34,982 nucleotides of DNA, taken from a virus. Position 1 is the first letter of the stretch; every line of letters begins with the position of its first letter. The stretch is from the IMG/VR virus record IMGVR_UViG_3300046804_002202, positions 1 through 34,982 of that record. One strand, written 5' to 3'. Positions 5,678 to 6,663 of the stretch are shown here, one piece after another. The position numbers were made by a program, and so were the translations under genes. Under the pieces are notes generated by a model that was not told the DNA's origin, did no database searches, and worked only from the letters and a program-made list of their open reading frames with translations.

Positions 5678-6124
5678 ATGAATAACTATTACACTTACGC
5701 ATATTTGCGTGAAGACGGAACACCTTATTACATAGGTAAAGGAATAAACAATCGTGCTTACAAAGGAGATTGCAAGTCGGTAAAAGTTCCACCTAAAGAT
5801 AGAATACTTTTTTTGAAAACGGATTTAACTGAAGAAGATGCTTTTAAACACGAGATTTATATGATAAGCATTTTGGGTCGTAAGGATATTAAAACGGGTA
5901 TTTTAAGAAACTTAACTGATGGTGGGGAAGGTTTTTCTTCTAAACAAATGACTATTCTTTGGGAAAGGAGAAGAAAAAGAAAGTTGGAATTAGAAATAAA
6001 AAAGTGGAGAAAAGAATATGATAAAGGTGCTATTTGGAGAGAAAAGAATAGAGAAGTTTTTGATGTGCTGATAAAAAATGTTATTAGTAATAGAACATTT
6101 ATGTATAATAATGATACCATTTAG
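5678..6124 (+). CDS. GIY-YIG free-standing endonuclease
   Basis: The 148-residue protein opens with [19 protein letters not shown] (about 4-22), a GIY-YIG nuclease core. An [13 protein letters not shown] segment carries the expected glutamate, and [11 protein letters not shown] completes the domain. The C-terminal half is lysine/arginine-rich and helical and probably binds DNA. It follows nested module A, so it is expected to be expressed late. It interrupts the early gene array between speD and the 6204 gene, as expected for a mobile free-standing endonuclease. Confidence 0.82.
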
Positions 6125-6153: not shown

Positions 6154-6183
6154 TTGACTACATAGTATGAATAGAGGTATAAT
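6154..6183 (+). promoter_or_regulatory. Strong sigma70-type early promoter
   Basis: TTGACT (6154-6159) and a perfect TATAAT (6178-6183) are separated by 18 bases. The expected start near 6190 leaves a very short leader before ATG 6204, beginning about CTAACGTTCATCC. The first transcribed bases are therefore the CGTTCATCC motif discussed under the riboswitch-like element. Confidence 0.78.
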
Positions 6184-6203
6184 AATCCTCTAACGTTCAT
6201 CCT

Positions 6204-6410
6204 ATGACTAAAGCACTTTTGCTTTTAGCATGGGTTCCACTTCTCTCTGTTTCAGCGCCACAATTTATTGCTACTTCTAAAGTATCAGTAAATTGTGACA
6301 CCGCGATGGAACTAATGGACATCGTTAAAAACGACGATGTAGTAATTCAAAGAGTAGAAGACCGATTGCTATTGGAACTCCGAAAGGATTTCATAAAAGT
6401 GTGTAACTGA
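6204..6410 (+). CDS. Small protein with a signal-peptide-like N terminus
   Basis: The 68-residue protein starts MTKALLLLAWVPLLSVSAP, a short positive start, a hydrophobic core and an Ala-x-Ala-like end. This resembles an export signal or a membrane anchor. The remaining part is helical and charged (VEDRLLLELRKDFIKVCN) with cysteines near both ends. No family is recognised. There is no Shine-Dalgarno sequence, and the leader is only about 13 bases. Its start region and the bases right after its stop are complementary (TCCTAT and ATAGGA), so the ORF may lie in the loop of a structured RNA. Confidence 0.65.
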   Translation: MTKALLLLAWVPLLSVSAPQFIATSKVSVNCDTAMELMDIVKNDDVVIQRVEDRLLLELRKDFIKVCN

Positions 6411-6496
6411 ATAGGACGGAAGTAAGCCGACGCGGAACGGATCGTTCATTCGCTATTCGCAAATAGCGAACGCAAACGCCGACTGAAGGAACGCTC
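6411..6496 (+). ncRNA. Glutamine-riboswitch-like RNA element (glnA/Downstream-peptide type hallmarks)
   Basis: The segment between the 68-residue ORF and the DUF4278-like ORF is GC-rich and structured. It contains GGACGGAAGTAAG (6414-6426), GGAACGG (6434-6440), CGTTCATT (6443-6450), a nine-base-pair hairpin TTCGCTATT/AATAGCGAA (6449-6457 and 6462-6470) and GAAGGAACGC (6485-6494). CGTTCA, GACGGAAGTA and GAAGGAACGC are signatures I recall for the glutamine-binding glnA and Downstream-peptide RNAs of cyanobacteria and their phages. Their order here is not standard: the GACGGAAGTA part comes before the internal CGTTCA, while another CGTTCATCC lies at 6194-6202, upstream of the ORF. No T tract follows, so control would be translational or by another route. 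Confidence 0.55.
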
Positions 6497-6525
6497 TTTA
6501 ACTTAAAAAACTAAGGAGAAACCTA

Positions 6526-6663
6526 ATGTCAAAAGTCGTATATCGTGGTGTTGAGTATGACACTGAAAAGCGTCTTCAATATCAACAACAAATGATGCAG
6601 CAACCTCAACAATACAACGAAACCTATCGCGGTGTTAAGTTTGTAAAGGAGGGGCACAAATGA
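6526..6663 (+). CDS. DUF4278-like small peptide
   Basis: This 45-residue ORF has an AAGGAG Shine-Dalgarno sequence (about 6513-6518) before its ATG. It contains two copies of a YRGV motif, VVYRGVEYDTE near the N terminus and ETYRGVKFVKE near the C terminus, separated by a Gln/Met-rich linker. Paired YRG motifs are typical of the small cyanobacterial DUF4278 proteins. Its position just after glutamine-riboswitch hallmarks fits the short peptides after which the Downstream-peptide RNA is named, suggesting a link to nitrogen status. The biochemical function is unknown. Confidence 0.7.
   Translation: MSKVVYRGVEYDTEKRLQYQQQMMQQPQQYNETYRGVKFVKEGHK

Follow-up and report, generated by a model that had tools for sequence, protein, structure and literature searches.

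Riboswitches are generally taken to be short and non-coding and to lie upstream of the gene that they control. Does a cyanophage leader in which the strands of a glutamine riboswitch flank a complete open reading frame (ORF) represent one aptamer with a gene inside it, two aptamers in tandem or the remains of a single one? The locus belongs to an IMG/VR virus record of 34,982 bases with the content of a T4-like cyanophage; this whole stretch of DNA is referred to as the window. Comparative sequence analysis indicates that positions 6194–6493 likely constitute one composite glutamine-I riboswitch aptamer, for which binding of glutamine is inferred.

A preliminary description, made from sequence alone, had proposed that glutamine-riboswitch hallmarks are split around a 68-residue ORF and that a second motif set follows. 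Both claims held and all motifs are in place: CTAACGTTCATCC is present at 6190–6202, ATAGGACGGAAGTAAG at 6411–6426 directly after the ORF (ORF1) and the second set, CGTTCATT...GAAGGAACGC, at 6443–6494. The observation is larger than in this first version and is not due to chance, because the sequence is conserved in 47 cyanophage records from 6411 onwards, the ORF is located in P2 in all 41 relatives with a long first loop, and the complementarity of the P2 strands exceeds that of all 2000 partner shuffles.

Layout of the locus and family assignment

Eight cyanophage relatives were read, and in all of them two CGTTCA...GGAACG units precede a short YRG gene. In each unit, the P2 loop either forms a short hairpin or holds a complete small ORF. 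Both loops are compact in S-CREM1 and S-PM2, unit 2 holds an ORF in DSL-LC02, DSL-LC03, S-SSM7 and P-SSM2, and both units hold one in P-SSM4 and P-HM1. The window has an ORF in unit 1 only. Altogether, 182 distinct cassettes were obtained by scanning IMG/VR with two DNA patterns and, independently of the RNA, with the downstream protein. The DNA patterns fixed much of the core, so that core conservation in those cassettes is partly by construction; the sample found by the downstream protein is free of this bias.

The promoter, the aptamer elements, ORF1 and the downstream gene are all on the plus strand. A sigma-70-type promoter is recognized from the sequence at 6154–6183 (−35 TTGACT, 6154–6159; −10 TATAAT, 6178–6183). 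The predicted transcript start at about 6190–6192 places P1 at the 5' end of the transcript, and CGTTCA is found 7–10 nt downstream of the −10 element in 145 of 179 cassettes.

An inverted repeat surrounds the −10 element of the cassette (TATAATAAT, 6172–6192; arms TAGAGG, 6172–6177, and CCTCTA, 6187–6192). Its arms covary, with at least 5 bp in 155 of 175 loci (about 36 expected from shuffles) and 61 distinct arm sequences. The repeat is kept as a hairpin and not as a sequence, and it might form in the promoter DNA or in the RNA of read-through transcripts. Such a repeat is present in ~17% of other promoter-like sites. A promoter-like site just before the manA RNA of P-SSM4 (184 bits) also has one around its −10 element (CAAATA...TATTTG, L005 ~490–520), and the feature might mark promoters of structured phage leaders. 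Directly 5' of the cassette promoter lies a GIY-YIG-like ORF of 148 residues (5678–6124), for which the Pfam family LEM-3_GIY-YIG scores 14.3 bits, below the cut-off.

Unit 1 begins with the 5' strand of P1 (CGUUC, 6194–6198), followed by the 5' strand of P2a (UCCUAU, 6200–6205), which covaries in relatives and contains the first two bases of the ORF1 start codon. ORF1 (6204–6410; 207 nt, 68 residues) has a hydrophobic N-terminus and two invariant cysteines (C31 and C67). The 3' strand of P2a (AUAGGA, 6411–6416) is supported by covariation and folding. It is followed by the core of unit 1, CGGAAGUA (6417–6424), which includes the AGUA strand of loop E and agrees with the RF01739 consensus in relatives with a compact first unit (L003, L008 and L002), and by the 5' strand of P3, AGCCGACG (6425–6432). 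The 3' GAACG of unit 1 and the 5' CGUUC of unit 2 form the hairpin P4 (GAACG-GAU-CGUUC, 6435–6447), the loop of which varies among relatives. In unit 2, the hairpin P2b (6449–6470) is compact in the window and bears an ORF in 96 of the 182 cassettes. The 3' strand of P3, CGCCGACU (6477–6484), and a segment containing the GAA strand of loop E and the 3' strand of P1 within GGAACG (6485–6493) complete the structure.

The earlier claim that TCCTAT (6200–6205) overlaps the ORF start and is complementary to ATAGGA (6411–6416) is confirmed: the ATG is at 6204, and P2a forms with a base-pair probability of 0.93 in the unconstrained ensemble of the window RNA. One claim has to be corrected. GGAACG at 6434–6439 had been regarded as the counterpart of the 5' CGTTCA, and its likeliest partner is CGTTC at 6443–6447, with which it forms the local hairpin P4 (probability 0.96). 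Thus, the P1 partner of 6194–6198 is 6489–6493 and not 6435–6439; in the composite fold this pairing is assigned by homology to single aptamers.

The lack of any covariance-model match would have refuted the preliminary description. The complete RF01739 model (Glutamine riboswitch) aligns to 6441–6497; in a search of 701 nt the match scores 33.1 bits (E = 2.9e-5), slightly short of the gathering score of 35 bits; in the Rfam scan of the window no glutamine riboswitch was found at the gathering threshold. This match covers unit 2, as the split unit 1 cannot be scored with a 207-nt ORF interrupting P2. The gathering score is exceeded by homologous first units whose P2 is compact (35.6 and 35.1 bits), so the refuting outcome did not occur. 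Unit 2 of S-CREM1 alone scores 33.5 bits, whereas the published annotation of this phage lists one 99-nt RF01739 match of 44.0 bits across both units (PMC9964418), which fits the composite reading. The bases that contact glutamine are C1, G2, G22, C58 and G59 (PMC6698751). Judged by position only, they are present at 6194–6195, in the CG after P2a (6417–6418) and at 6492–6493, and likewise in the permuted unit 2 (6443–6444, 6471–6472 and 6438–6439).

Assignment to glutamine-II (RF01704) was rejected. There is no glutamine-II P2 helix and no RF01704 match in the window, and first units of relatives reach only 22.7–26.4 bits with non-standard P2 pairs (cut-off 33). Weak Rfam matches to PreQ1, freshwater-2 and MIR837 in the window are below their cut-offs and were treated as chance.

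Loop E, helix P3 and the single-aptamer homologs

Loop E is split in every parsed cassette. Unit 1 contains AGUA and lacks GAA, while unit 2 contains GAA (or AAA) and lacks AGUA. The strand following AGUA in unit 1 pairs with the strand preceding GAA in unit 2, and the resulting inter-unit P3 (6425–6432 with 6477–6484) covaries. Position 8 of this helix, unconstrained in both search patterns, is T-A in 112, G-C in 27 and A-T in 22 of 182 cassettes. Including a rare T-G, 162 of 182 are paired (shuffle mean 97.5, maximum 116). When the cassettes are placed on a tree of the downstream gene, the two bases of position 8 change in concert in ~11 of the 12 independent pairs on supported branches and in opposition in none (p ~0.001). 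Position 1 is A-T or G-C in 181 of 182 cassettes (shuffle maximum 172). In cassettes bearing ORF2, the gene in the loop of P2b, the unit-2 base of position 8 is the third base of a Lys or Asn codon; this residue thus appears to be set by the pairing of the RNA. P3 also contains recurrent mismatches, C.A or A.C at position 3 (6427/6482) in 178 of 182 cassettes and A.C at position 6 (6430/6479) in 140 of 182. These might pair as protonated A-C or belong to a tertiary contact.

In five relatives (L161, L173, L181, L183 and L189) a single ordinary aptamer occupies the cassette locus. It reads ...GGAAGUAGG-GAAA-CCGAAGGAACGC or a close variant thereof, that is, AGUA-GG-GAAA-CC-GAA with P3 closed by GAAA. 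Taken together, these single-aptamer homologs, the split loop E and the inter-unit P3 make the composite look like an ordinary aptamer with its P3 loop replaced. In all likelihood, judged by comparative sequence analysis, its outer unit is a three-way junction of the usual glutamine-I type (P1, P2a, loop E and P3) whose P3 loop is substituted by a circularly permuted second core, with P4 as the permuted P1 and with P2b. Because P2 and P3 covary and single-aptamer homologs exist, the three-way junction P1-P2-P3 with loop E (AGUA/GAA) is considered to be present; it is met by the composite only and by neither unit alone. Of the possibilities raised initially, a gene inside the aptamer and a rearranged aptamer are supported and a plain tandem is less likely.

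Support for the outer P1 pairing comes from P3, loop E and the single-aptamer homologs. The P1 strands are almost invariant, hence there is no covariation evidence for P1. In the unconstrained minimum free energy (MFE) structure of the window RNA, P2a, P2b and P4 are formed and P1 and P3 are absent. This absence is expected for a weak, ligand-dependent aptamer, yet it is no proof of one.

The composite pattern was found in three contigs among 84,980 prokaryote genomes (two labelled Prochlorococcus, one Dehalococcoidia MAG, Red Sea), and in this analysis the composite was found only in phage or phage-like contigs. RF01739 matches are present in 58 of 292 cyanobacterial genomes. All 30 host loci that were read are single units with both loop-E strands.

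Some further elements were observed. L205 and L207 have single glutamine aptamer-like elements before the YRG gene, with a compensatory P1 (CGUUG/CAACG) and a different P3 region. One cyanobacterial genome (G172, contig 2, 1066802–1067466) has three RF01739 matches spaced ~300 nt apart, perhaps an array of riboswitch-controlled small genes. The P4 loop of L062/L138, L163 and L166 holds an ORF of ~196 codons, which has GIY-YIG-like N-terminal motifs as read from its sequence, has no Pfam match and reads through all of unit 2 to the loop-E UGA. Short inter-unit linkers in other loci (e.g. GATTAAAACCTACTTATAGGT) may be remnants of such an insert.

Genes in the P2 loops

The lengths of the P2 loops in the 182 cassettes are bimodal, with 10–32 or 190–225 nt in P2a and 11–22 or 138–195 nt in P2b. 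Every long loop contains an ORF (41 of 41 in P2a and 96 of 96 in P2b, 137 in total), and the proposal that the ORF fills the loop of the second stem is therefore upheld. The ATG is located 3–7 nt after CGTTCA, within the 5' strand of P2. In 94 of 96 cases the stop codon of ORF2 is the loop-E UGA or UAA (CUGAAGG or CUAAAGG), which corresponds to the UGA at 6484–6486 of the window. As the stop lies inside loop E, the last codons of ORF2 (DAKAD or DANAD) are the aptamer core. ORF1 ends with the UAA in CGCAAGUAAG (..GRK*) in 17 of 41 cases and otherwise just before or in the 3' strand of P2. Most likely, as comparative sequence analysis suggests, these are small protein genes nested in the P2 loops, with their starts in the 5' strand of P2 and their stops in or beside the aptamer core.

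The sequence of compact P2 hairpins varies freely and complementarity is kept. The strands flanking the ORFs covary as well, with mean complementarities of 5.43 bp for P2a (4.11 in shuffles, maximum 5.00) and 6.42 bp for P2b (4.04, maximum 4.81); in both cases 0 of 2000 shuffles reach the observed value.

The coding RNA itself is unusually stable. The window RNA (6190–6560) folds with −105.4 kcal/mol (z = −4.5), and the coding RNA of its ORF1 with −68.7 kcal/mol compared to −47.6 kcal/mol for synonymous shuffles. Similarly, ORFs in P2a have an MFE of −59.0 kcal/mol versus −47.2 kcal/mol for synonymous-codon shuffles (more stable in 40 of 41), and those in P2b −40.0 versus −32.5 kcal/mol (92 of 96). 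For segments of ordinary genes of the window, which served as control, the difference between native and shuffled RNA is only −2.7 (sd 4.2) and −1.9 (sd 3.5) kcal/mol. The nested ORFs thus appear to be dual-coding, for a protein and for an RNA rod that extends P2. The rod is a model prediction, regarded as likely.

At the protein level, the nested families (50–69 codons) are conserved and are present or absent as modules. The median dN/dS of the three ORF groups is 0.32, 0.21 and 0.68. The ORF1 family has the value of 0.32, and that of ORF2, 0.68, corresponds to mild protein-level selection. Translation is inferred, and the ORFs have no Shine-Dalgarno sequence. ORF1 has no Pfam match above the cut-off, a tblastn search with ORF1 against phage records gave no match, and its family was recovered only via the RNA pattern. 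For the nested proteins, the families phrog_6471 and phrog_504 are without known function. AlphaFold predicts a two-helix hairpin for ORF2 (pLDDT 86) and yields a poor model for ORF1 (61); Foldseek returned mostly uncharacterised phage proteins, several of them from cyanophages. A shared C...C plan suggests common ancestry of the ORF families, but the hhalign probabilities are only 4–11% and ancestry is not claimed.

Switching, rival readings and significance

The gene predicted to be regulated (6526–6663) encodes a 45-residue YRG peptide. It matches phrog_5049 (E 6e-12), and PF14105 (DUF4278) with 19.5 bits (E 0.0013), which is less than the gathering score of 25.3. The peptide is consequently termed DUF4278-like and is not filed as a member. 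The putative expression platform spans 6494–6518, where CUCUUUA just 3' of P1 can pair with UAAGGAG, the ribosome-binding site (RBS) of this gene. The 7-bp hairpin appears in the fold of the window RNA and is not conserved in marine relatives. Since the RBS is predicted to be sequestered with or without the aptamer, folding does not predict the direction of YRG control. Characterised cyanobacterial glutamine riboswitches are ON switches for DUF4278 genes (PMC6316151, PMC6698751). If the cyanophage switch behaves analogously, high glutamine would turn the YRG gene ON and the nested gene OFF.

A composite aptamer with nested genes and coupled switching is the likely explanation of the whole; that the aptamer binds glutamine, that the ORFs are translated and how the switch works are inferences, and there are no binding, probing, transcript-start or ribosome data. 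Binding of glutamine by the aptamer is very likely. Bound glutamine would allow P1 and P2 to form and block the nested start codons, so that the nested protein would not be made; this step may equally well prove right or wrong. The nested AUG, which lies only ~13 nt into the transcript and lacks a Shine-Dalgarno sequence, would be buried in P1/P2, and ribosomes could start there on the unliganded RNA. Translation might in turn open the aptamer, with ribosomes melting P2, and also the core in the case of ORF2 and of many ORF1 genes, and thereby keep the switch open, a suggestion made only tentatively. The nested and the downstream genes would then show opposite or coupled responses to glutamine. 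Two coupled glutamine sites sharing one P3 might permit cooperative sensing, with odds somewhat below even. A bolder reading, to which slightly less than even confidence is given, is a nested, domain-swapped pair of glutamine sites with one shared P3 that acts as a cooperative sensor, the genes in the P2 arms being part of the switch. If true, the coding sequences would serve a dual purpose, as protein and as riboswitch arm, in gene regulation of a kind that has not been described.

Three rival explanations were considered. The nested ORFs could be mobile passengers that the aptamer merely accommodates in its peripheral loops, comparable to homing genes in the loops of group I introns, and without a regulatory link to glutamine. 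Frequent gain and loss of the ORFs on the poorly resolved tree (at least 30 and at least 45 changes), the GIY-YIG-like ORF in the P4 loop of three contigs and the one just upstream in the window (5678–6124) are in favor of this. However, in almost all of the 137 cases the start, the stop and the two P2 strands form an integral part of the aptamer, the P2 flanks covary, the coding RNA is selected to fold and the P2 ORFs are not endonucleases. This explanation is unlikely, though it is compatible with the composite reading as the evolutionary origin of the nested ORFs.

Alternatively, the locus could consist of two independent tandem aptamers, each with its own P1, with a gene in one loop and with the pseudo-cooperative behavior that has been described for tandem glutamine riboswitches. 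RF01739 scores are 35.6 and 35.1 bits for compact first units alone and ~33 bits for compact second units, tandem glutamine riboswitches have been reported (157 doublets in PMC9481103; also PMC2864571), and all four P1 strands are mutually complementary. On the other hand, each unit lacks one loop-E strand in all parsed cassettes, so that neither is complete, P3 pairs and covaries between the units and not within them, and single aptamers at the cassette locus have both loop-E strands. The plain tandem is very unlikely and was rejected as the main model on the grounds of the split loop E, the inter-unit covariation of P3 and the single-aptamer homologs.

That the motifs are remnants of a decayed aptamer cut by an inserted gene, for which the window match below the RF01739 gathering score would speak, is all but excluded by core and P2/P3 pairing maintained by compensatory change in 182 cassettes and by near-identical layouts in many phages and contigs.

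The composite reading places the element next to several known systems. It shares with the glutamine-I riboswitch (glnA RNA, RF01739) the CGUUCA-P2-ACGGAAGUA...GAAGGAACG core, the three-way junction with loop E and the position before a DUF4278-like gene, as in cyanobacteria (PMC6316151). It differs in that the P3 loop is a second permuted core, loop E is shared between two units and the P2 loops may hold genes. Like tandem glutamine riboswitches (PMC9481103, PMC2864571), it has two glutamine-like units per leader, but these are incomplete and have loop E and P3 in common, which favors reading at least the doublets of cyanophages as a single nested structure. The glutamine-II riboswitch (Downstream-peptide, RF01704) resembles the cyanophage element in its CGUUCA/GGAACG strands and in having downstream genes of the DUF4278 type; its P2 helix is absent from the cyanophage element. 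In the glutamine-II crystal, strands are exchanged pairwise between molecules (PMC6698751).

An ORF inside an aptamer, the translation of which would disturb folding, is known from the metE B12 riboswitch of Mycobacterium tuberculosis (PMC11260477), but this translated uORF has ~15 codons and is not confined to one peripheral loop with start and stop built into aptamer strands. Group I introns carry protein genes in loops of a structured RNA (PMC3984707); the cyanophage host is a riboswitch and not a ribozyme, and its P2 ORFs encode small, helical proteins with two cysteines, the GIY-YIG-like ORF being in P4. The open-access literature searched (subscription papers were outside its scope) contained no account of the composite or of riboswitch loops that hold genes, and the nearest prior reports are the tandem glutamine riboswitches and the uORF in the B12 aptamer.

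Covariance-model searches with short length limits miss aptamers that are split by ORFs. The arms of the cyanophage glutamine aptamer contain complete conserved genes whose codons double as aptamer bases, and the aptamer is nested with a permuted copy. If confirmed, this would allow a direct test of the competition between ribosomes and aptamer folding on one RNA, and would change how "tandem" glutamine riboswitches, at least those of cyanophages, are interpreted. In marine and freshwater cyanobacterial viruses, a nutrient sensor has seemingly been fused with genes that it could control, which, if confirmed, would give abundant picocyanobacterial viruses a further point of control that senses nitrogen.
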